Below are positions 379 to 53,163 of a DNA stretch of 64,000 nt, piece after piece (position 1 is the stretch's first letter; every line of letters begins with the position of its first letter). This DNA is from Hydrogenothermaceae bacterium (GTDB lineage Bacteria; Aquificota; Aquificia; Aquificales; Hydrogenothermaceae): assembly GCA_026418455.1 (NCBI GenBank), contig JAOABH010000003.1:248001-312000 (forward strand), given 5' to 3'. The notes beneath the pieces were generated by a model that made no database searches, had not been told where the DNA came from, and saw only the letters and a program-made list of their open reading frames with translations. Both the position numbers and the translations under genes were made by a program.

Positions 379-786
379 ATGAAAAAGGTATTATTGACAG
401 CTTTAGTAGGAATGTTTCTCTTTGGGTGTGCATCTAATGAGATAGTTATACAACCTAATGCTCCTGTTAATTTTGTTGCTAAACAGGAGAGAAGGGGAGA
501 TTATAACTTTATAGTTCCTTCAAATTTTTACCTTGTTGAGTCTGAATCATTTATATATGAAAACGGTCCAGTTTATCGTGCTTATCTACTATACAAAGGG
601 GAAGGGTTTATACAGGATATTGTAAAGTTCTTTGATACTAATATGGAAAAGGCAGGCTGGAAAAAAGAATCTGCAACTATCGGAAGAGACGCTGTTCTTG
701 CTTACTCTAAAGAAGGGCAGAGAATTGTTATAAAAATAAGCTATGGAATAACAAACACTTACCTAAAGATGTTACTAACAAGATAA
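379..786 (+). CDS. Predicted lipoprotein, 135 aa
   Basis: A small exported lipoprotein of unknown function. The N-terminus is a lipoprotein signal peptide (MKKVLLTALVGMFLFGC) with a lipobox LFGC ending at Cys17, so it should be lipid-anchored. The mature domain of about 115 residues contains a segment with an aromatic/GW pattern (FFDTNMEKAGWKKES), which recalls small periplasmic beta-sandwich lipoproteins with a conserved 'M..aGW' stretch; I cannot name the family. The start is preceded by AAAGGAG. It stops 1 base before the next small gene. An A/T-rich TATAAT-like box lies at about 340-346 upstream. Confidence 0.75.
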   Translation: MKKVLLTALVGMFLFGCASNEIVIQPNAPVNFVAKQERRGDYNFIVPSNFYLVESESFIYENGPVYRAYLLYKGEGFIQDIVKFFDTNMEKAGWKKESATIGRDAVLAYSKEGQRIVIKISYGITNTYLKMLLTR

Positions 787-787
787 G

Positions 788-1099
788 ATGAAGCGTTTTA
801 TTGCTTATATCTTACTTTTTGGCTTTCTTTTTAATCTGTTTCATGATTATTTATTATCTATGTCAAAAGAAGCAGATAAAGTTGAGATTGTAGCTTTACA
901 AAAGTCAAATACAGACAAATCCGGAAAAAATCATATCTCAGAGATACACAGTAATTTACATGTGCCGTATATTGATTTTGTACCACTTTTAACTTTAAAA
1001 CAATGTCAAATTTCCAGTGAATTCTTTATTCCTTCTCCTACCAAAATTAAATCAGAATATCTCTACGATATATTTAAGCCTCCACGTATATCTTTATAG
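788..1099 (+). CDS. Small membrane-anchored protein with C-terminal KPP motif, first gene of RND locus 1
   Basis: A 103-residue protein with one N-terminal hydrophobic segment (about residues 4-24), a polar periplasmic-looking middle and a C-terminus ending in FKPPRISL. I do not recognise a named domain. A similar-sized protein (99 aa, one N-terminal hydrophobic segment, ending in the Lys-Pro-Pro motif KPPSTINLIL) heads the second RND locus at 50660-50959. The layout (small one-helix protein directly before a heavy-metal RND operon, Pro-Pro near the C-terminus) recalls CzcI-type and 'HYC_CC_PP'-type small proteins, but this is analogy only. It begins 1 base after the lipoprotein stop with no strong ribosome site, so translational coupling is likely. 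Confidence 0.6.
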   Translation: MKRFIAYILLFGFLFNLFHDYLLSMSKEADKVEIVALQKSNTDKSGKNHISEIHSNLHVPYIDFVPLLTLKQCQISSEFFIPSPTKIKSEYLYDIFKPPRISL

Positions 1100-1139
1100 A
1101 AATCCCAATAATCTTTAACTAAAATCCGGAGGTCAAACG

Positions 1140-2186
1140 ATGAAATTTGTAGTTTTATTTATATTGTTCCTATTTGCTAATATATACAGTCAAGAGATAA
1201 ATCTTACAAAAGATATAGAAAACAAACTTAATTTAAAAACATTAAAAGTTAAAAATATCCAAGAAGTTCAGACTAAGATATATCCAGCAAAAGTAGTTGA
1301 CAATCCAACTTTAAGTTTTGAAGTATCTTCACCTGTTGATGGAATAGTTGAAAAGGTGTTTGTAAAACAAGGGGATATAGTTAAGAAAGGTAGTATGCTG
1401 CTGAAAGTTTACTCACCTCAGATAGCAAATATCCAGTCAAATATTCAGATGACAAAAGTAAGATTAAAAACAGCTGAAGATGTTTTACAAAGGGAAGAAA
1501 TGCTATACAAAGAGGAAGTTATTCCTTATAGCAGATTTTACAGTGCAAAAATAGAGTATGAAAAAATAAAGGGAGAGTTAGATGCTTTAGTTAAAGCTTT
1601 AAAGTCTTACGGGGAGATTGAAGGAAACTCAATAATATTAAGAAGTAAAATAGATGGTTTTGTGGCAGAGTCCAAAGCTATAAATGGTATGCCTGTACCT
1701 GTTGGAGATAGTATTATGAAAATTCATTCTTACAGAGTTGTATGGGTTGAAGCTATGGTTCCTTTTGAAGACACAAAATTTATAAAGATAGGACAAAAAG
1801 CTAAAGTTATAAATCCTGAAGGTGAAAAAGTAGAAGGTAAAATAACTTTGATTAATCATGAGTTAGACCCTAAGACTTCAAGAAATTCAGTAAGAGTTGA
1901 AGTGTATGAACCAGGAGAAGTTGTCAAACCTAATATGTTTGTAAATGTAGAAATCCCCATTTATTCACAGAAAGGTCTATTTATACCTTATCAAGCAGTC
2001 GTAAATCATAATGGTAAAAACTTTGTATTTGTTAAACAATCTTCAAAAGCTGTTCTAAGGGAAGTTAAATTAGGTAAAAAAGTAGGTAGTAGTGTTGAGG
2101 TTATCTCTGGGCTTAAAGAAGGTGAAGAGATAGTTATAGACGGAGTAATATTCCTTAAGGCTCATCTGTTTGGTGGAGGAGAATAA
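1140..2186 (+). CDS. RND efflux membrane fusion protein (CusB/CzcB-like)
   Basis: A 348-residue periplasmic adaptor of a heavy-metal-type RND efflux system. It has a signal peptide (about 17 residues ending in YSQ), a split lipoyl/barrel-sandwich domain (SPVDGIVEKVFVKQGDIVKKG early; SKIDGFVAES after the hairpin), a coiled-coil hairpin of about 80 residues between them (residues ~95-170), then beta-barrel and membrane-proximal domains. The start follows GGAGG with good spacing. It ends one base before the pump gene. No His- or Met-rich N-terminal metal-binding extension is seen, so the substrate metal is not shown by this protein. It is paralogous to the gene at 48406-49458. Confidence 0.88.
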   Translation: MKFVVLFILFLFANIYSQEINLTKDIENKLNLKTLKVKNIQEVQTKIYPAKVVDNPTLSFEVSSPVDGIVEKVFVKQGDIVKKGSMLLKVYSPQIANIQSNIQMTKVRLKTAEDVLQREEMLYKEEVIPYSRFYSAKIEYEKIKGELDALVKALKSYGEIEGNSIILRSKIDGFVAESKAINGMPVPVGDSIMKIHSYRVVWVEAMVPFEDTKFIKIGQKAKVINPEGEKVEGKITLINHELDPKTSRNSVRVEVYEPGEVVKPNMFVNVEIPIYSQKGLFIPYQAVVNHNGKNFVFVKQSSKAVLREVKLGKKVGSSVEVISGLKEGEEIVIDGVIFLKAHLFGGGE

Positions 2187-2187
2187 A

Positions 2188-5100
2188 ATGTTTGTTATAG
2201 ATACTGTTTTAAGATACAGATTAATTGTCCTATTTTTACTTTTCTTAATAATATCCTATGGATTATATTCATATAAAACTTTACCTATAGATACATTTCC
2301 AGATCCAACGCCTATTCAGGTAAATATATATACAGAAGCTCCGGGACTTTCTTCAGAAGAAGTGGAAACATTGATAACAAAAAAGATAGAAACCTTTATG
2401 GGTGGTATTAAAGATGTTACTACTGTCAGAAGTGTATCTCTTCCGGGACTTTCATACATATCTGTATTTTTTAAAGATGGAACAGATGTATACTTTGCCA
2501 GAAGACTTGTTATGGAGAAGTTAGCAGATGTGAAAGGATCTATTCCAGCAGGATATAATCCTGTTATGGGACCAAACTCATCTGGTTTAGGAAATGTCCT
2601 GATATATGCTCTTACATCTTATAAAAGATCACTTACAGATCTCAAAACTATCCAAGAGTGGAAAATTAAACCTCTTATTAAATCTGTTGAAGGGATAGAA
2701 GATATAGTTCAATGGGGACCAGAAAGAGCTTTCGTAGTAAGACCAAATCCTGATAAGCTTATGTATTACAATATAGATTATACAGAAGTAGTAAATGCCA
2801 TAAAGAATTTTTCGGCAGTTACAGGGGGTGGATACTCAAAAACTCCAGAAGGGGATTTGGTAGTCAGAGCTGTTGGACACTATACAGATATAAACTCTAT
2901 ACTTGACACTCCAATAAAAGAAACCGATGGTTTCATTGTTAAAATAAGAGATGTTGCAACAGTAGAAGATGGAGAGCTCCCAAATAGAAGAGGAGCTTTT
3001 ACACTAAACGGTCAAGAAGTCCAAGGTAATATAGTTTTAAAGAGAGTCAACACAAACACAAAAGAAGTCGTAAAAAATTTAAAAGAGAAGATAGAAAATA
3101 TAAAGAAGATCCTTCCGGAAGATGTAAAACTAAATCTTCTATACGACCAATCTTATCTAACAGAAAAAGCTATCCATACAATCCAAAAAGCCCTCATAGA
3201 AGGTATAGTTTTGGTTGCTATAGCTATGTTTATCTATTTAGGTAATATAAGGACAGCTTTTGTTGTTATTTTGTCTATTCCTCTCACTTTACTTATGGCT
3301 TTTATCTTTATGAAAGAATCTGGATTAAGTGGTAATCTTATGTCTTTAGCAGGACTTGCCATAGGTATAGGACTTTTTGCAGATGCTACAGTCGTAGTTA
3401 TAGAGAACATATACAGAAATTTTTCACATTACTCTATGGAAAATAAAGTATCTATAATAGAGCAATCAGTTAAAGAGGTTTTTAAGCCAGTATTTTTCGC
3501 CATTTTGATAATAGTGATAGTCTTCTTACCTATATTCAGTTTTGAGTCTGTTGAAGGTAAATATTTTAAACCTTTAGCTCTAACTATAATTTTTGCCCTT
3601 TTATCTTCCCTATTTGTTGCTTTCATATTTATGCCGGTTTTGTCTTACTTTATACTTAAACCAGACAAGGAAGAAGAAACAAAACTTATTAAAATTGTGA
3701 ATACTTTCTACCATAAAATTTTAAACAGAGCCTTAACCCATGGAAAGTTAGTTATAATCTCTGTAATATCCCTATTTCTCTTTTCCCTGTTTTTATTATC
3801 AAAGATAGGAACAGAGTTTGCCCCCACATTAGATGAGGGAGGTATCCTTGTAAAGAGCTTCTTAGACCCTAATGTTAACTTGAATCAGGCAAAAGAGGTT
3901 GCTTTTTTTGTTGAAGAACAAGCCAAAAAATTTGATGAAGTAGAGTATGCATTTTCAAACATAGGAAGGTCAGAAAAAGGAGAGCCGGAAGATGTATACT
4001 ATATAGAAACTTTTATAATCCTAAAACCTTACAATGAATGGAAGAACATTAAAACAAGACAAGAATTGGAAGGCAAGATAAGAGAAAAAATAACAATTTT
4101 ACCGGGTGTATCTTTCAGTTTTACTCAACCTATTCAGATGAGGATAGATGAATTACTATCCGGAGTAAAATCTACCGTAGCTGTAAAGATCTTTGGAGAT
4201 GACTTATATAAGATAAATGAAATAGCTTATAAAGTTGAAAATTTAATCAGAAATACGCCAGGAGCTGTAGATGTTGAGACAGAAGCTCAAAGTGGAAAAC
4301 TTCAGTTAAAAATAGTCCCTAAAAAGGAGATACTTTCAAGATATAACCTGACAGTAGAAGACTTATTTTCTATAATAAAAAATTACTTTGCATCTGAGGA
4401 GATAAATGTTGTAAAAGATGGATTAATAACTTTTCCGATTGTTGTCAGATTACCGGAAGATGTTATAAACAATGTAGATATGATAAAAAATCTAACATTT
4501 AAAACAAAAGATGGATACATACTTACCCTCTGGCAGGTTGCAGATATCTCAATTTCAGAAGGTTTTGCCAAGATAAGACACGAAAATGGACAGAGATTTG
4601 CTTTGGTCCAATCTAACTTACAAGGGAGAGATTTAGGAAGCTTTGTAAATGATATAAAACAGAAGATTGATAGTCAGATAAAATTACCACAGGGTTACTA
4701 TATAGAGTTTGGAGGTCAGTTTGAAAACCAACAGAGAGCCATGAAAAAGTTATCTATAATAGTTCCGATAGTTATACTTCTTATATTTATATTACTATTC
4801 ATAAACTACAACTCAATAAAAGATGCTCTCATAGTCATACTTAACGTTCCATTTGCAACAATAGGAGGAATCCTTTCCCTGTATATATCAGGTTTTAACT
4901 TATCAGTCCCAGCATCAATAGGATTTATAGCAGTTTTCGGTATTGCAACCTTAAACGGCGTTGTTTTAATATCTTATATAAGACAACTCTTAGAGTCAGG
5001 ATTAAATATAGACGAAGCTATCCAAAAAGCTACAAAATTAAGATTAAGACCTATCCTTATAACAGCAACAGCCTCATCATTAGGACTTATTCCTATCTTA

Positions 5101-5253
5101 CTTACTACAGATATAGGTTCAGAAGTCCAAAAACCAATAGCAGTTGTAGTTGTAGGAGGTATATTCACATCAACATTGCTTACACTTATAGTTTTGCCTA
5201 TTGTTTACAGGCTCTTTAATAAAAATGTTGAATCCAGTAAGAGATTAAGTTAA
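2188..5253 (+). CDS. Heavy-metal RND efflux pump (CusA/CzcA family)
   Basis: A 1,021-residue inner-membrane proton-driven RND transporter. It has TM1 after about 10 residues, the FPDPTPIQVNI block following it, two large periplasmic loops and twelve predicted TM segments. The TM4 proton-relay region reads GLAIGIGLFADATVVVIEN: it keeps the second Asp and the Glu of HME-RND pumps but lacks the DFG-type first Asp of CzcA, so it is nearer the CusA-like/unclassified HME groups. The conserved FTQPIQMRIDELLSGVKS segment is present. I chose ATG 2188, which sits 7 bases after GGAGGAG, over a TTG 18 bases upstream. No outer-membrane channel gene is adjacent; the second locus (45242-50624) has one. Confidence 0.92.
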   Translation: MFVIDTVLRYRLIVLFLLFLIISYGLYSYKTLPIDTFPDPTPIQVNIYTEAPGLSSEEVETLITKKIETFMGGIKDVTTVRSVSLPGLSYISVFFKDGTDVYFARRLVMEKLADVKGSIPAGYNPVMGPNSSGLGNVLIYALTSYKRSLTDLKTIQEWKIKPLIKSVEGIEDIVQWGPERAFVVRPNPDKLMYYNIDYTEVVNAIKNFSAVTGGGYSKTPEGDLVVRAVGHYTDINSILDTPIKETDGFIVKIRDVATVEDGELPNRRGAFTLNGQEVQGNIVLKRVNTNTKEVVKNLKEKIENIKKILPEDVKLNLLYDQSYLTEKAIHTIQKALIEGIVLVAIAMFIYLGNIRTAFVVILSIPLTLLMAFIFMKESGLSGNLMSLAGLAIGIGLFADATVVVIENIYRNFSHYSMENKVSIIEQSVKEVFKPVFFAILIIVIVFLPIFSFESVEGKYFKPLALTIIFALLSSLFVAFIFMPVLSYFILKPDKEEETKLIKIVNTFYHKILNRALTHGKLVIISVISLFLFSLFLLSKIGTEFAPTLDEGGILVKSFLDPNVNLNQAKEVAFFVEEQAKKFDEVEYAFSNIGRSEKGEPEDVYYIETFIILKPYNEWKNIKTRQELEGKIREKITILPGVSFSFTQPIQMRIDELLSGVKSTVAVKIFGDDLYKINEIAYKVENLIRNTPGAVDVETEAQSGKLQLKIVPKKEILSRYNLTVEDLFSIIKNYFASEEINVVKDGLITFPIVVRLPEDVINNVDMIKNLTFKTKDGYILTLWQVADISISEGFAKIRHENGQRFALVQSNLQGRDLGSFVNDIKQKIDSQIKLPQGYYIEFGGQFENQQRAMKKLSIIVPIVILLIFILLFINYNSIKDALIVILNVPFATIGGILSLYISGFNLSVPASIGFIAVFGIATLNGVVLISYIRQLLESGLNIDEAIQKATKLRLRPILITATASSLGLIPILLTTDIGSEVQKPIAVVVVGGIFTSTLLTLIVLPIVYRLFNKNVESSKRLS

Positions 5254-45241: not shown

Positions 45242-48200
45242 TTATCTTCTTCTAAACTTATCAACAGATCTGTTGTAAGCTTTTATCATCTTCTTTTTCT
45301 TATCATTTATAAATCTCTGGAATTTATTCGGCTTTTTAAAGGTAGGATAAGGAGAAGGTTCTCTGTAAAAAAGTTTATAAACTGTAGGAAGGATAAGTAA
45401 AGTAAGCATTGTTGATGTGAATATTCCACCTATGACAACGGTTGCTATCGGTTTTTGTGTTTCCGATCCTACATCTGTTGTAAGGAGTATAGGAACTAAT
45501 CCTAAGGAGGCTGCTGTTGCAGTTATAAGTATAGGTCTAAGCCTTAATTTAGTTGCTATCTGAATTGCTTTATCTATCGGTTTACCTTCTTCTATCATCT
45601 GTCTTATGTATGATATAAGAACTACTCCATTGAGGGTGGCTATACCGAAAACGGCTATAAACCCTATTGCAGCGGGAACAGATAGGTTAAATCCGGAAAT
45701 GTATAGGGCGACTATACCTCCTATCGTAGCAAAAGGAACATTTAATAAAACTATAAGGCTGTCTCTTGCTGAGTTGTAGTTAATGTATAGTACAACGAAT
45801 ATTAGTAGTATAACGATGGGTATGATTATAGAGAGTTTCTTCATAGCTCTCTCTTGGTTTTCAAACTGTCCAGCAAACTTTATGTAATAACCTTCTGGTA
45901 GTTTTATCTCTCTGTTTATTTTTTCTCTTAACTCATTTATAAAGCTTCCAAGGTCTCTATCTTTTAAGTTAGACTGGATAAGGGCGTATCTCTGTCCGTT
46001 TTCATGTCTTATCTTAAAGAATCCCTCCGATATCTCTATGTCTGCTACCTGAGATAATGTTACGAGCTGGTTTTCTGAGTTAAATATTGGAAGATTAAAA
46101 AATCTCTCAAGATTGTTTATATCTTTATCAGGTATTTTCAATATTATTGGGTAAGTGATCAGACCCTCTTTTAATACATTTACCTCTACACCTGCAATAG
46201 CTTCTTCTATAATTTGAAGTAGGTCATCTATAGTTAATCCGTATCTTGCCAAGGTTTCCTTTTTAGGTAGTATCTTCATCTGTAGTTTTCCTTTTTGAAC
46301 TTCCATCTCAACGTCTATAGACCCAGGTGTTGATCTAACTATTTTTTCAATGTCCTCTCCGATTTTGTTTAAAGTTTCTAAATCGTCTCCGAAAACTTTT
46401 ATTGCAACGGTAGATTTTACTCCAGATAAAAGTTCATCTATCCTCATCTGTATAGGTTGTGTAAAACTAAATTTTGCTCCTGGCAATGTTTCCAACTTCT
46501 CTCTGATGGCATTTTCAAGTTCCTGTTTCGTTTTAAAAGTTTTCCAATCTTTGTAAGGTTTTAAAGTTATAAAAGTTTCCATATAGTTAAAATCTTCAGG
46601 ATCTGCCTTCTCAGATCTTCCTGCCAACGTGAAAGCATTCTCTACTTCCGGAAAACTCTTGGCTGTTCTCTCCACAAAAGATGCAACTGCTTTTGACTCT
46701 TCCATCGTTACATTTGGGTTTAAATAAGTTTTAACAAGTAATGTTCCTTCGTCAAGGGTAGGAGCAAACTCTGTCCCTATACGGCTTAACAGAAATATTG
46801 AAAATATAAAAGTTGCTGTTACAAATGCTAATATCAATTTTGGATATTTCAGGGTTTTGTTAAGAATCTTTTGATAAAACTGAGTTATCTTTATCATATA
46901 TCTTGGTTCTTCTTCCTTCCCTGCTTTCAAGAAGTAGTAAGCTAAAACGGGCATAAATACAAATGCAACAAAGAGAGATGAAAACAGAGCAAATATTATT
47001 GTTGTTGCAAGAGGCTTGTAGTATTTACCTTCTACAGACTCAAAACTATAGATAGGTATAAAAACTAAGGCTATTACAAATATTGCAAATAGAACTGGTC
47101 TTAGAACCTCTGACACAGATAAAGATAGTATCTCAAGTTTACCTTCCTTTTTCTTTATAAATTCTGGAGTGTGATGGAAATGTCTGTATATATTTTCTAT
47201 TACAACTACAGATGCATCTGCAAACAGACCCATACCTATTGCAAGCCCAGCAAAAGACATAAGGTTTCCAGATACTCCGACAGATTTCATAAATATAAAG
47301 GACATAAGTAATGTTATAGGTATTGAGAGAACAGCTATTAGAGCTGCTCTAAAGTTTCCTAAGTAGAATAACATGGCAAGTGTAACAAGTATTATACCCT
47401 CTAAAAGAGCCTTTTCTACAGTATGTATAGCTTTGTCTATTAAATATGACTGATCGTATATAACCTTCATATTTACATCATCAGGGAGAACTTTTTTTAC
47501 CTCATTTAATTTGTTAAACACATTCTTTATAACTTCTTTTGTGTTTGTGAACATTCTTTTTACTACGATATTTCCCTGAGACTCCACACCATTAAGTGAG
47601 AATATACCTCTTCTTCCGGGAACTTCACCTATCTCTACCTGAGCTATCTCTGAAAGCCTTATGAAAAAACCTTCCTTTGTTTTTATAGGTATATTTTTTA
47701 TATCATCTAATGATTTTAATGCTCCAATTCCTCTCAATACTATATCTTTATTGTTTATAGATGCATAACCACCTCCTACTACACCACCACCTTCTCTTAG
47801 CTGTGAAATAAGATCATTTAGAGATATATTGTAAGCTATCATTTTCTCATAATCAGGTCTTATTAAAAAAGCTTTGTCTGGACCCCACTCATTTATATCT
47901 TCTACACCATCTACAGATTTAAGTAAAGGTCTAACTTTCCATCTCTCTATACTCTTCAACTCTTCTAAGCTGTAATTTTTGCCTTCAAGAATGTAGAACA
48001 TAACGAAACTTAATCCTGATGCGTTAGGACCCATTACAGGTTTAAATTGTGGGTCTAATATTGATTGAGCTTCTGTCAACTTTTCCATTACCAGTTTTCG
48101 TGCAAAGTATATATCTGTTCCATCTTTAAAAAATACAGTTATCTGAGATAGTCCGGCAATGGAAACACTTCTAACTCCTGTAACATCTTTAATTCCGGAA

Positions 48201-48406
48201 ACTACAGACTCTATCTTCTTTGTTACAAGACTTTCTACTTCCTCTGCAGAGAGTCCAGGAGCTTCGGTGTATATGTTAACTTGTATAGGTGTCGGATCTG
48301 GAAATGTATCAACTGGAAGTGTTTTATAAGAAAAAAGTCCTGCTGCTACAGTAACAAAAAGTAGGAATATAACTATTATTCTGTTGGCTAATATAAACTT
48401 TATCAT
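45242..48406 (-). CDS. Heavy-metal RND efflux pump, second paralogue
   Basis: A 1,054-residue HME-RND pump, close paralogue of the gene at 2188 (same FPDPTPIQVNIYTEAPGLS and TM4 GLAIGMGLFADASVVVIEN segments). It differs by a basic cytoplasmic C-terminal tail of about 35 residues (PTFKKPNKFQRFINDKKKK). ATG 48406 overlaps the stop of the fusion-protein gene (ATGA) and has GGAGG 6 bases upstream. With its fusion protein and outer-membrane channel it makes a complete tripartite pump. The divergent copper receptor suggests copper (or silver) as substrate; this is inference from context. Confidence 0.93.
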   Translation of the reverse strand: MIKFILANRIIVIFLLFVTVAAGLFSYKTLPVDTFPDPTPIQVNIYTEAPGLSAEEVESLVTKKIESVVSGIKDVTGVRSVSIAGLSQITVFFKDGTDIYFARKLVMEKLTEAQSILDPQFKPVMGPNASGLSFVMFYILEGKNYSLEELKSIERWKVRPLLKSVDGVEDINEWGPDKAFLIRPDYEKMIAYNISLNDLISQLREGGGVVGGGYASINNKDIVLRGIGALKSLDDIKNIPIKTKEGFFIRLSEIAQVEIGEVPGRRGIFSLNGVESQGNIVVKRMFTNTKEVIKNVFNKLNEVKKVLPDDVNMKVIYDQSYLIDKAIHTVEKALLEGIILVTLAMLFYLGNFRAALIAVLSIPITLLMSFIFMKSVGVSGNLMSFAGLAIGMGLFADASVVVIENIYRHFHHTPEFIKKKEGKLEILSLSVSEVLRPVLFAIFVIALVFIPIYSFESVEGKYYKPLATTIIFALFSSLFVAFVFMPVLAYYFLKAGKEEEPRYMIKITQFYQKILNKTLKYPKLILAFVTATFIFSIFLLSRIGTEFAPTLDEGTLLVKTYLNPNVTMEESKAVASFVERTAKSFPEVENAFTLAGRSEKADPEDFNYMETFITLKPYKDWKTFKTKQELENAIREKLETLPGAKFSFTQPIQMRIDELLSGVKSTVAIKVFGDDLETLNKIGEDIEKIVRSTPGSIDVEMEVQKGKLQMKILPKKETLARYGLTIDDLLQIIEEAIAGVEVNVLKEGLITYPIILKIPDKDINNLERFFNLPIFNSENQLVTLSQVADIEISEGFFKIRHENGQRYALIQSNLKDRDLGSFINELREKINREIKLPEGYYIKFAGQFENQERAMKKLSIIIPIVILLIFVVLYINYNSARDSLIVLLNVPFATIGGIVALYISGFNLSVPAAIGFIAVFGIATLNGVVLISYIRQMIEEGKPIDKAIQIATKLRLRPILITATAASLGLVPILLTTDVGSETQKPIATVVIGGIFTSTMLTLLILPTVYKLFYREPSPYPTFKKPNKFQRFINDKKKKMIKAYNRSVDKFRRR

Positions 48407-49458
48407 CACTTTCCTCCGAAAAACTCTCTTTCAAGTAGGTTTAACCCAGATATTACTATACTGTCTCTCTCTTTTAGTCCTTCGGATACGATATAATTTT
48501 CATCAATTTTTTTTGTTATAGTTATCTGTCTTAAAGTATATTTATTACCCTCTTTTAAAACTACGAAGTTTTTTCCATCTTTTGAGATTACCGTACTTCT
48601 TGGAATTACTATCCCAAACTCCTGATCTGTTATAAACCTTACATTTACAAACATATTTGGTTTAAGTATGAAGTTCTGATTTTTTGCAACTATATGTATT
48701 TGGTTTCTCCTTGTTGCAGGATCTAACTGATAATCTACTAAGGATACTTCTCCGGTAACTTCATAATTTGTGGAAGTTTTTATAAATGCTTTTGATCCTA
48801 CTTTAATTGATTCTACTTTTTCCGGGGGAACCTGAGCTTTTACCAATACCGTAGATATATTTGAAATTTTCGCTATCTCTTTACCTATACCTACTGGTGA
48901 TCCAGCTAACACAAACACATCAAGGACGACACCACTTTCTTTTGCTCTTAATATGAGTTTGTTATCTTGTATATCTCCATAGGATTTCAATGTTTTTTCC
49001 AAAGCTCTCAGGTTGGCAACAGCATTTTCATACTCTATCTTTGATGAGTAATATTTTGAAAAAGGAATTATTTCCTCTTTATAGAGCATTTCATTTCTTT
49101 TAAGTATATTTTTAGTAGTTTCAACTTTTACCTTAGCTATCTCTATCTGTGATTTCAGTTGATTTATTTCGGGAGATAATATTGTGGCAACTATCTGACC
49201 TTTTTTTACGAAACTTCCTTTCTTTATGTAGAGTCTATCTAAAACACCATCTACTATTGAGGATATCACGTATGTATTTTTTGGATCCTCTGATACAATG
49301 GCTGGAAATTCTTCTACGTCCGAAATAACCTGTTTTTTAACAGTCAAAACTTTTATGTTAAAGTTTTTCTCAAACTCCGGATTTACTTTTATATACTCTT
49401 TACCAAAAGATATTCCAAAACTTATAAGTATAGATAAAGTAAATACTAAGTTTTTCAT
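48406..49458 (-). CDS. RND membrane fusion protein, second paralogue
   Basis: A 350-residue periplasmic adaptor. Signal peptide ends about FGK (residue 20), then barrel-sandwich halves (SSIVDGVLDRLYIKKGSFVKKG; RAKESGVVLDVFVLAGSPVG) around a coiled-coil hairpin, beta barrel and membrane-proximal domain (PRSTVISKDGKNFVVLKEGNKYTLR). Like its paralogue at 1140, it has no obvious metal-binding N-terminus. It overlaps the channel gene (ATGA) and the pump gene (4-base overlap at each side). Confidence 0.9.
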   Translation of the reverse strand: MKNLVFTLSILISFGISFGKEYIKVNPEFEKNFNIKVLTVKKQVISDVEEFPAIVSEDPKNTYVISSIVDGVLDRLYIKKGSFVKKGQIVATILSPEINQLKSQIEIAKVKVETTKNILKRNEMLYKEEIIPFSKYYSSKIEYENAVANLRALEKTLKSYGDIQDNKLILRAKESGVVLDVFVLAGSPVGIGKEIAKISNISTVLVKAQVPPEKVESIKVGSKAFIKTSTNYEVTGEVSLVDYQLDPATRRNQIHIVAKNQNFILKPNMFVNVRFITDQEFGIVIPRSTVISKDGKNFVVLKEGNKYTLRQITITKKIDENYIVSEGLKERDSIVISGLNLLEREFFGGK

Positions 49459-50624
49459 AAGTTACCTCCTATCCTTAGATATTCTGAGAAGTTTTTATGA
49501 AGCTGATTTAAAATCTCCGCTCTGTACCTTATAGTTTGAAAGTAATCATTTTTGATGTTAGTAAGTTCAAAAAGTTTTATTACTTTAAGTTTATAGCTTT
49601 TGTTTGCAAGTTGTAACTGTTGGTTAAGTGTTGGAATGATATTTTCCTCAATGTCTTTAAGTTGTTGTCTTAATATTTGGTCTGTTTTTGTCAGAGAATC
49701 TACCTTTATTTTTAGACTGTCAGAGGTATATTTTGATAGATTTTCAAAATAAGCTTTTTTATTTCTTGCAGATATTATCTCTCCGGAATATCTGTAAAAA
49801 ATAGGAAGTTGAACTGATAAGAAAAATCCTGCTTCATAATTATTTTTAAATGGTTCTCTCGTTATAAATCCAACAGAAAATTGAGGTTTTGCCAAAGATC
49901 TGTAGTAATTTTCCTGATTTTCTAAGGCAGATATATTCTCCCTATATATTTTAATCTGGGGAAGTTCAGAGATAGTTATCTGTTTAATATGTTCTATCTT
50001 TTGAAAGTCTCCACTAACATCTTTTACAAGATAACCTATGGTTGCAGACAGCTTTTCTAAACTCTGTTTGTAAAGTAGTTGCTGTTTTTCAAAATTAATT
50101 TTTGCAAGATTGTAATCTTTCTCTGATCTTAAAAAATCTACCTTACTTATCTCTCCAAGCTGATATGTCTTTTTAACGAAGTTGTATATCTCTTCCGAAA
50201 AAGTTAGCTCTTTTGCTGCTATATCTAAAAGTTCTTTTTGGTATAGAGCTTCGTAAAATTGGTAATAAATATCAGCTATAAACTCTCTTTTAAATAAATC
50301 AAAGCCATATTTTGCAGAGTTGTATATATTTATAGCCTCTTGGGTTTTATACCTTCTAAGTCCGTATAAGTAAAGTGGTTGAGTTAGATATAGTTCTGTC
50401 AATGTAGCAGATGAGTTGCTTTTATTTATAACTCTTCCAAATTCTGTATAAATTTCTGGATTGGCAAAAGCTTTTGCCTTTATTATCTCTCCTTCAAATG
50501 ATTTTACTTCGTACTCTTTACCTTTTATAATATCACTTTCATAAGCTTTCTGTAAAATCTCTTCAAATGTTTCAGCTTTTGATATAGATGATATTAACAA
50601 AATAGCATATAAAAACTTTTTCAT
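49455..50624 (-). CDS. TolC-family outer-membrane channel (CusC-like)
   Basis: A 389-residue TolC-type outer-membrane efflux protein. It has a signal peptide (MKKFLYAILLISSISKAE), two outer-membrane efflux repeats and long coiled-coil helices (LDIAAKELTFSEEIYNFVKKTYQLGEISKVDFLRSEKDY; LQLANKSYKLKVIKLFELTNIKNDYF). ATG 50624 is preferred: GGAGG lies 8 bases upstream, while the longer frame begins with a TTG inside that site. It is the first of the three tripartite pump genes; the pump at locus 1 has no such partner nearby. Confidence 0.9.
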   Translation of the reverse strand: MKKFLYAILLISSISKAETFEEILQKAYESDIIKGKEYEVKSFEGEIIKAKAFANPEIYTEFGRVINKSNSSATLTELYLTQPLYLYGLRRYKTQEAINIYNSAKYGFDLFKREFIADIYYQFYEALYQKELLDIAAKELTFSEEIYNFVKKTYQLGEISKVDFLRSEKDYNLAKINFEKQQLLYKQSLEKLSATIGYLVKDVSGDFQKIEHIKQITISELPQIKIYRENISALENQENYYRSLAKPQFSVGFITREPFKNNYEAGFFLSVQLPIFYRYSGEIISARNKKAYFENLSKYTSDSLKIKVDSLTKTDQILRQQLKDIEENIIPTLNQQLQLANKSYKLKVIKLFELTNIKNDYFQTIRYRAEILNQLHKNFSEYLRIGGNL

Positions 50625-50659
50625 AAAATAGACCTCCAATTTAGATTTTGAGAATTATT

Positions 50660-50959
50660 TTACAGAATTAAATTAATGGTTGAGGGGGGTTTAAGAATCT
50701 TTGATGGTAAGATAGACAGTTTTAAATTTAACTTTTCTGACCTGTTTTCTATTTTAATATCTTCTTTGCAAGTATGTTTTAATGGTAGGATAACTTCTGT
50801 ATCCTCTATTTCATACTGATCTTTAACAGTTTCTTCATAGATAATGTCTTGCCTGTCATAATGTTCATTGTAATAGTAGGAAAAATTCACTAAAACTAAT
50901 AAACTTATAAATAAAATCCGTAAAAACTTTCTGTAAATCATAGGTATATTATACATCAA
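50660..50959 (-). CDS. Small one-helix protein with C-terminal KPP motif, first gene of RND locus 2
   Basis: A 99-residue protein with an N-terminal hydrophobic helix (about residues 12-27), a polar, charged middle with one Cys, and the ending ILKPPSTINLIL. It mirrors the 103-residue protein that heads the first RND locus (788-1099, FKPPRISL). It is 36 bases upstream of the channel gene. Start is uncertain: the first ATG has no ribosome site, and a TATAAT on the minus strand (50953-50948) overlaps the first codons, so the real start may be the ATG at 50941 or the mRNA may be nearly leaderless. I do not recognise the family; CzcI-like accessory role is a guess. Confidence 0.6.
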   Translation of the reverse strand: MMYNIPMIYRKFLRILFISLLVLVNFSYYYNEHYDRQDIIYEETVKDQYEIEDTEVILPLKHTCKEDIKIENRSEKLNLKLSILPSKILKPPSTINLIL

Positions 50960-51078
50960 AACATCAAAAATATTTATTTAGTTTTATGATTTTCATCAAA
51001 TTGTTAAAAAGTGGTTTGATTTTAACATTAAAGTATAATATTATATTAACATAAAATTTAACAAACGGAGGTTGAACT

Positions 51079-53163
51079 ATGAAGAAACTTGCCAGCTTTA
51101 CGATTCTTACTACAATTGCTGTTAATTTTGCCAATGCTCAAGATGTTATCAGGGTTGAAAAGTTAACTGTTGAAGAGAAACAGAAAAAAGAAGAAGTTAC
51201 AAAAAAAGAGACAACCCAAGAAGATGTGAAAATCACAAGACAGATAGATTTAGGAGAGATACTATCAGGAATATATCCAGAGATAAACTTTATGAGAAAA
51301 GCCTCAACTGCAAACGATATAAATATCAGAGGATTTATGAGGGACAATATCAATGTCCTAATAGATGGTTCAAAAATATACGGTGCTTGTCCAAATAGGA
51401 TGGATCCGGCTTCTTTTCATGTTTCATCACCTCAGATAGAGAGTATACAGATAAAAGAGGGACCTTTTGATGTGGAAAATGCTGGCTCACTTGCTGCTGT
51501 TGTTAATGTTAAAACTAAGGACCCTAAGGAAGGAGTTGGGGGAGAAATTGGTGGTACCTACGGAAGTTTTGATTACAGAACCGGATATATTCAAGGTAAT
51601 GTAGGAAATAAGTTTGTTAAAGTTTTGGTTGGTGCCTCTAACCAATACTCAAAACCTTACGAAAGTGGTGAAGGTAAAAAGGTAACAGAGTATGTTGTTT
51701 ATTCCACTCCTATGGGATTAGGTAGATACAAACCTCAATATATCAACGATAAAGCCTTTAATATAGACAGAATTTGGTCTAAAGTTTTGATAACTCCAAA
51801 TAATAATACCGAGTTAAAACTTTCCTATGCTTTTGAAAATGCAAGAAATGTCCTATATCCAGCTTTAAAAATGGATGCTCTCTATGATAGAACAAACAGA
51901 TTTAATGCAGATTTTTCCTTAAAAGACATAGGATTAAAACTCTCTGCTTACTACAATGAAGTAAAACATGATATGAGAGACACATTCAGAACTACTTCTG
52001 GAAATTTACCTTACAGTATGAAAACTTACGCTGAATCAAAAATGTATGGTGTTAAACTTTCAAAAGATATAAATATAGCATCTGTAGATACTACTTTTGG
52101 AGTTGATTACTACTTGAGAAATTGGAAAGCTGATAACGTACAGATGGGAGGTATGAACAAAAACTTTGGAATGATTCCTGATGTTGATATAAAGAATGTG
52201 GGATTTTTTGTTAAAGGTGTAAAAGATATACAAAGATGGACTCTATCTGCTGGGTTAAGATTTGATTACACAGATTCAGAGGCAGATAAAAATGCAATAT
52301 CAGGGAAAAATGAAGATTTTATCACAAACCGATTGTTGACAAACTTTTCTAAAACAGACAGTTATCCTTCTGGATATCTCTTGGCTAAGTATAACATAGA
52401 TAAGAAGAACAATCTTTACATAGGTTTTGGACACACTGTAAGAGTTCCAGATCCAATAGAAAGATGGATTGTTTTATATAGCTCCTCTTTTCCATGGTAT
52501 GGTAATCCTAACTTAAAACCTACAAAAAATAATGAAGTTGATTTAGGTGGAGAGTTTTATCCATTTAATAATCTTGGAATAAGAGCTAACATCTTTTACA
52601 GTGATCTGACAGATTTTATCTATCTTAGACAGTATCCGGCAGGAGCAAATTGTATCGGCACGGGAAACACCACATGTACAACTTATCAAAATATAGATGC
52701 CCACATTTACGGAGCAGATTTAAATCTTTTCTATGGATTTAATGAAAAGATATCATTGGAAGGTGGAGTGGCTTATCAGAGAGGTAAAAAAGACAGTGGT
52801 CAGTATAAAGATAGTGACCTTGCGGAGATACCACCTCTAAAAACAAGATTGGCAGTTAGATACGATGATGGTAAATTTTACGGATTAGTTGAAGGTATAT
52901 ATCAGGCAAAACAGTCAAATGTTGACACAGACTTAAAAGAATTTGAAACACCTTCCTACTTTATAATGAATGTTAAAGCTGGATATACTTATGGAAACAA
53001 ACTTTTTGTAGGTGTTGGAGTAGACAACCTCTTTGACAGACTTTACTACAACTATCTTTCCTATGTAAGAGATCCGTTTAGAGGTATATCTGTTTCAGGA
53101 AATCCTGTAAAAATTCCTGAACCGGGAAGATTTATATACGCAAATGTATCTTACAGATTCTAA
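51079..53163 (+). CDS. TonB-dependent copper receptor (OprC/NosA type)
   Basis: A 694-residue TonB-dependent outer-membrane receptor: signal peptide of about 20 residues ending ANA, plug domain, then a 22-strand barrel ending in FIYANVSYRF. The plug has IYGACPNRMDPASFHV, the OprC/NosA hallmark. The known OprC copper site is CxxxM-HxM: here C104-P-N-R-M108 in the plug and H297-D-M299 in the barrel match it in both motif and spacing. So it should take up copper. Transcribed divergently from the RND locus across a 120-base AT-rich gap that carries CATCAAA repeats and a TATAAT at 51034-51039. Ribosome site CGGAGG. Confidence 0.88.
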   Translation: MKKLASFTILTTIAVNFANAQDVIRVEKLTVEEKQKKEEVTKKETTQEDVKITRQIDLGEILSGIYPEINFMRKASTANDINIRGFMRDNINVLIDGSKIYGACPNRMDPASFHVSSPQIESIQIKEGPFDVENAGSLAAVVNVKTKDPKEGVGGEIGGTYGSFDYRTGYIQGNVGNKFVKVLVGASNQYSKPYESGEGKKVTEYVVYSTPMGLGRYKPQYINDKAFNIDRIWSKVLITPNNNTELKLSYAFENARNVLYPALKMDALYDRTNRFNADFSLKDIGLKLSAYYNEVKHDMRDTFRTTSGNLPYSMKTYAESKMYGVKLSKDINIASVDTTFGVDYYLRNWKADNVQMGGMNKNFGMIPDVDIKNVGFFVKGVKDIQRWTLSAGLRFDYTDSEADKNAISGKNEDFITNRLLTNFSKTDSYPSGYLLAKYNIDKKNNLYIGFGHTVRVPDPIERWIVLYSSSFPWYGNPNLKPTKNNEVDLGGEFYPFNNLGIRANIFYSDLTDFIYLRQYPAGANCIGTGNTTCTTYQNIDAHIYGADLNLFYGFNEKISLEGGVAYQRGKKDSGQYKDSDLAEIPPLKTRLAVRYDDGKFYGLVEGIYQAKQSNVDTDLKEFETPSYFIMNVKAGYTYGNKLFVGVGVDNLFDRLYYNYLSYVRDPFRGISVSGNPVKIPEPGRFIYANVSYRF

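Follow-up and report, generated by a model that had tools for sequence, protein, structure and literature searches.

TonB-dependent receptors with a CxxxM-HxM copper site are typified by OprC of Pseudomonas aeruginosa and NosA of P. stutzeri (PMC8610252), the latter linked to nos genes. Export is exemplified by CusCFBA of E. coli, in which an RND permease, an adaptor and an outer membrane efflux protein (OEP) are joined in one operon and accompanied by CusF and CusRS. Further types of small protein associated with such systems are the leaders CutF (Rhodobacter capsulatus), CruR (Bordetella pertussis) and CopL, which have fewer than 150 residues, a hydrophobic export segment, two prolines within the last 15 residues and a close downstream gene on the same strand, often an OEP gene (PMC9973294, PMC9426467). 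An OEP gene is the commonest neighbour of CutF-like proteins (PMC9973294), and the RAPP motif of CruR matters in cis (PMC9426467). CzcI of Cupriavidus metallidurans, likewise small, exported and thought to be regulatory, is encoded immediately upstream of the OEP gene of an HME pump and lacks a C-terminal proline motif (PMC9973294).

Elements resembling all of these systems occur together in a stretch of 64,000 nt, here called the window, from Hydrogenothermaceae bacterium (GCA_026418455.1, contig JAOABH010000003.1, positions 248,001-312,000 of the forward strand), within which the part studied spans positions 45242-53163. The genome (G000; 8 contigs, 1.54 Mb) was compared across 41 genomes of the family, nine of which make up two close genera: the window's own (G000 and G014) and a sister Sulfurihydrogenibium group. 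As the named close relatives are Sulfurihydrogenibium records, the window's genus appears to lie next to Sulfurihydrogenibium within the Hydrogenothermaceae. The five genes of the original prediction (RND permease, MFP adaptor, OEP, small ORF and receptor) were confirmed in position, and the features of the window are as follows.

788-1099, plus strand: second leader (FKPP), heading the paralogous pump; assigned by motif and position
1140-5253, plus strand: paralogous pump (adaptor 1140-2186, RND 2170-5253); its RND is 63% identical to that at 45242-48409
45242-48409, minus strand: HME-family RND permease lacking the methionine triad of CusA (TIGR00914, 964 bits; Lys, Tyr and Glu at CusA Met573, Met623 and Met672)
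48406-49458, minus strand: periplasmic adaptor (MFP), CzcB/CusB-like (PF16576, E 1.5e-26; TIGR00999, 160 bits, below cut-off)
49455-50639, minus strand: outer membrane efflux protein, CusC/CzcC-like, likely starting at ATG 50624 (PF02321, E 5e-24)
50660-50959, minus strand: small predicted exported leader ORF, 99 aa (93 if the start is ATG 50941), with an N-terminal hydrophobic segment and a C-terminal LKPP
50684-50692, minus strand: KPP codons (AAA CCC CCC) close to the leader stop; motif kept, despite synonymous codon changes, in 18 leaders
50986-50999, no strand: uncertain FNR-like box ATGATTTTCATCAA (9/10); its score is equalled by about 8% of background upstream regions
51002-51027, no strand: 26-bp dyad TGTTAAA-N12-TTTAACA, candidate operator common to SCO1 (two perfect copies in the genome; 8/8 exact copies in two genera)
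51016-51044, plus strand: putative receptor promoter, -35 TTGATT, 17 nt, -10 TATTAT (9/12 matches; layout kept at most receptor and SCO1 promoters)
51079-53163, plus strand: OprC/NosA-type TonB-dependent copper receptor, 694 aa (OprC 6fok, E 1e-28, profile E 8e-51; TIGR01778, 221 bits; 39/41 family genomes)
51388-51402, plus strand: C104-M108 codons (GACPNRMD), first half of the copper site, aligned to OprC C143/M147 and invariant in 32/32
51967-51975, plus strand: H297-D-M299 codons, second half of the copper site, aligned to OprC H323/M325 and invariant in 34/34

These features are best read, with a probability of about 0.68, as two back-to-back units with different jobs, a copper-supply receptor that belongs with SCO1 and an HME pump without the Met triad that has its own cis-acting leader.

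The assignment of the receptor as an OprC-type copper importer is well supported, both by invariant ligands and by its SCO1, PCuAC and nos context in relatives. OprC is its only strong solved relative, and the proposal that it carries both halves of the OprC copper site, C104-x3-M108 and H297-x-M299, at similar spacing has been borne out: all four ligands align letter by letter with those of OprC, and the cysteine and histidine are separated by 193 residues as against 180 in OprC. Across 34 family homologues this conservation (32/32 for C104 and M108, 34/34 for H297 and M299) is far beyond chance. M265, M314 and M365 are likewise invariant in 34/34, and the methionine track of OprC (PMC8610252) is their natural comparison. 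With 39 of the 41 genomes encoding it, the receptor belongs to the core gene set of the family. It nevertheless differs from OprC in being only some 20-25% identical, a figure judged by eye and not computed exactly, and its score against the curated TonB-copper equivalog TIGR01778, still its best-scoring family, lies below the cut-off of 472 bits, so that it is termed OprC-type rather than a proven equivalog. An AlphaFold2 model built from only four sequences had a pLDDT of 29.6 and was discarded. Two relatives depart from the usual gene structure. In G040 (L058:9052-9348) the receptor is readable only as a C-terminal remnant, and in G036 (L008/L105, about 1000-1250) the receptor start and promoter appear inverted beside the receptor on a low-coverage contig, reflecting either a rearrangement or an assembly fault.

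Outside the window's genus, SdhB, nos genes, SCO1 or other genes lie upstream of the receptor. In 14 of the 31 family neighbourhoods SCO1, with PCuAC behind it, is transcribed divergently from the receptor, and in many relatives the receptor lies behind or near nosZ-nosL-nosD-nosF-nosY, a linkage shared with NosA. This context indicates a role in copper supply in the NosA sense. In the window's own genus the receptor, unlike OprC and NosA, adjoins neither nos nor SCO1 genes. The genome encodes two Cu-type P-ATPases, two SCO1-family genes and one cbb3-like oxidase (CcoN/CcoO), whose subunits score below equivalog cut-offs; neither NosZ nor COX2 was detected in it, so that the consumer of the copper here is probably the CuB centre of the cbb3-like oxidase.

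A regulatory site had been anticipated in the intergenic region at 50960-51078, and comparison of upstream regions did reveal one candidate there, the dyad TGTTAAA-N12/13-TTTAACA. The copy at 51002-51027 lies 51 nt before the receptor start and overlaps the receptor -35 box; the only other exact copy in the genome lies 46-47 nt before a SCO1 gene. Across the 41 genomes the exact pattern occurs at 12 distinct sites and a reversed control pattern at one. Within the two close genera (nine genomes) there are eight exact dyads, found before the receptor (five) or SCO1 (three) only, and those of other genera are inside or near unrelated genes. When up to two mismatches are allowed, every one of the seven SCO1 promoters examined in the two genera has the dyad at 42-57 nt, matching at 12-14 of 14 positions; at the receptor, G014 and G033 have a degenerate copy and G038 has none. 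At most receptor and SCO1 promoters of the two genera, the right arm comes after a -35 box of the form TTGAWT, and a -10 box lies about 17 nt beyond that -35 box. A sigma-70 scan of the intergenic region alone did not set the receptor promoter (9/12) above shuffled sequences. Together these patterns provide good evidence at the level of sequence that the receptor and SCO1 are co-regulated. As the same dyad lies over a TTGAWT -35 box at both promoters, a DNA-binding regulator probably switches the two genes together as one copper-supply regulon. Copper would be the signal, and repression under sufficient copper would be the simplest reading of the dyad. In the window the dyad is also close to the leader start, so that it may have an effect on the pump as well.

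The dyad could instead be a general promoter element or an FNR-type element and not a copper-specific operator, as its overlap with the -35 box, the lack of a regulator assigned to it and the FNR-type boxes at the receptor of relatives with nos genes might suggest. Such boxes precede the receptor in all 18 nos-bearing neighbourhoods examined (9-10/10 matches, mostly 94-135 nt upstream), a count drawn from related and so not independent genomes, and they occur in 29 of 363 background upstream regions (about 8%); the FNR-like box of the window, 50986-50999, does not rise above this background on its own. A general or FNR-type role is nonetheless unlikely, as the exact matches in the two genera are confined to two copper genes, the reversed control has its single match in 41 genomes, and the 7-bp arms and their spacing do not fit TTGAT-N4-ATCAA. 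The FNR-type receptor boxes are distributed over loci L037, L039-L049, L052 and L061-L064; in the examined genera without linked nos genes, the SCO1-shared dyad is found instead. To our knowledge, bacterial copper-uptake regulators are hardly known, and the candidate operator common to receptor and SCO1 is new and may serve as bait for isolating one.

On the other side of the intergenic region, the RND-MFP-OEP operon is intact and divergent to the receptor. Its earlier description as CusCBA-like holds for architecture and family: like CusCFBA it is an operon of RND, adaptor and OEP genes, and its permease belongs with CusA in TIGR00914 (cut-off 701 bits) and has equivalents of D405 and E412, the conserved Asp and Glu of TM4. 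The description does not extend to the copper site. CusA Met573, Met623 and Met672, the Cu(I)-binding methionines in CusA structures, are replaced here, and none of the triad residues is present; the system also differs from CusCFBA in being 33% identical and in having neither CusF nor CusRS. The same Lys, Tyr and Glu occur in every orthologue of the clade of this pump (the A clade), and the family-wide B clade has Lys or Glu, Tyr and Glu at these positions; in the permease tree, whose root is unresolved, the A clade and the B clade form separate groups. A CusA that does have the Met triad is encoded on contig C6 of the same genome (L092:7259-13282) with an OEP, an adaptor and a NosL-family protein. 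Because of the residues at the triad positions and the presence of this second system, the window's pump is not an obvious copper exporter: copper export by it is unsupported, as is the original claim that it exports the metal that the receptor imports, and it probably exports another metal ion. The missing Met ligands are no proof against copper as a substrate.

Several features of the related pump loci may also be recorded. In the Met-triad operon on C6, NosL occupies the usual place of CusF. The paralogous HME pump of the window (379-5253) consists of a lipoprotein-like 135-aa ORF, an FKPP leader, an adaptor and an RND permease, with no adjoining OEP gene. In G038 (L077:4048-4470; also L078) the leader of the A-clade pump has a hemerythrin-family gene directly before it.

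The small ORF ahead of the OEP gene had been taken for an accessory protein of a pump with no regulator gene beside it. The ORF is present, but the accessory role is doubtful and the absence of an adjoining regulator is probably illusory, as the ORF resembles the cis-acting leader peptides described above. Its counterparts, identified by position and motif, head 17 of 17 OEP-headed pump operons examined (16 found directly, that of G010 in the translated upstream region). They are 89-120 residues long, lie 20-66 nt before the OEP ORF, have a hydrophobic start and end in (I/L/P)(F/L)KPP plus 2-8 residues. In the window's leader, LKPP stands 7 residues before the stop (KPP being residues 90-92), the ORF itself lies 35 nt before the OEP ATG, and the N-terminal segment has a mean Kyte-Doolittle value of 2.4 over 15 residues. 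The motif is specific to these ORFs, since of the 198 unique pump-locus ORFs with 60-150 residues, 17 have KPP in their last 15 residues and every one of these is a leader, that at 788-1099 included. A Fisher value of 2e-21 calculated for this association is disregarded, as the 16/1 table behind it disagrees with the unique counts. The motif codons differ at their third positions (CCA, CCT, CCC, CCG; AAA, AAG; TTT, TTC, CTT), so that it is the peptide that is conserved.

An explanation of the motif at the level of RNA alone was considered and not adopted. CCU is the proline codon best suited to Shine-Dalgarno pairing. Several leaders can pair their KPP codons with the OEP Shine-Dalgarno sequence; the helices are mostly weak at 65 C, the proline codons are mostly CCA, and no such hairpin is predicted at 65 C for the window's own leader. 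A recurring UUCUGUCUUUU-like stretch lies some 20-30 nt before the OEP start, between the leader stop and that start (L080, L081, L085, L088, L089, L091), and is a possible pause or protein-binding site.

In length, terminal prolines and downstream OEP gene, these ORFs match CutF-like leaders, and their hydrophobic N-terminal segment may be an export signal. They differ in having FKPP or LKPP in place of RAPP, in an Aquificota host and in showing no DUF2946 match (for the window's leader, none to PF11162 at E 1). From CzcI the window's leader is set apart by the proline motif itself. As a protein query, the 98-aa leader retrieved only itself with confidence. A His/Cys pattern (FHD..., IHxxLH) is kept in the leaders of the B clade and missing from those of the A clade; the window's leader, with one Cys and two His, has no clear Cys/His metal motif of the kind known in CutF-like proteins, and that of G014 has neither residue. 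The position of the ORF, always directly before the OEP gene, its hydrophobic N-terminus and the His/Cys pattern of its B-clade relatives could also be explained by a periplasmic pump accessory, a CusF-like metallochaperone or an assembly factor whose KPP binds a part of the pump. This is improbable, because in A-clade leaders (89-99 aa) the mature part is almost unconserved and without a Pfam match and the stop-proximal motif alone is kept, which is the pattern of an arrest peptide, and because the same layout regulates in cis in CutF and CruR (PMC9973294, PMC9426467). By analogy with these proteins, the small ORF is probably a cis-regulator of the pump, with ribosome arrest presumably occurring at FKPP.

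The receptor and the pump are paired divergently in only 2 of about 32 neighbourhoods, those of G000 and G014. As this pairing is confined to the window's own genus, their intergenic region arose by recent juxtaposition and says little for a common function. The idea of import and export controlled as a unit from one region is not supported, as the pairing is limited to these two genomes, the dyad is shared with SCO1, and G033, G036 and G038 have their A-clade pump orthologues apart from the receptor and with no exact dyad before them. A single copper-homeostasis module, with the receptor importing, the divergent pump exporting and both under one copper-responsive control region, is quite improbable: it would suit the divergent gene order of G000 and G014, the place of the pump in the CusA/CzcA family and the dyad in the common intergenic region, but not the missing Met triad with a Met-triad CusA elsewhere, the absence of the pairing outside the genus or the lack of exact dyads before those three pump orthologues.

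In the preferred reading of two separate units, the receptor would bring copper into the periplasm for cuproenzyme assembly. The RND-MFP-OEP operon, one of two paralogous HME pumps, would work on another metal ion, with a leader ending in (I/L)(F/L)KPP shortly before its stop slowing the ribosome in cis and so tuning pump translation or transcription; the two units would have become neighbours only in the window's genus. The case illustrates that divergent neighbours may differ in both substrate and control. Extended to the Hydrogenothermaceae as a whole, the proposal is tentative, at slightly less than even odds: exported leaders outside DUF2946 would slow ribosomes at FKPP for HME pumps, and a separate repressor would coordinate OprC-type import with SCO1 through TGTTAAA-N12/13-TTTAACA. 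The FKPP leaders are new and, if they act as proposed, the sensing of metals by nascent chains, as described for copper with CutF and CruR, would reach a deep-branching thermophilic phylum and extend to pumps that do not look copper-specific.
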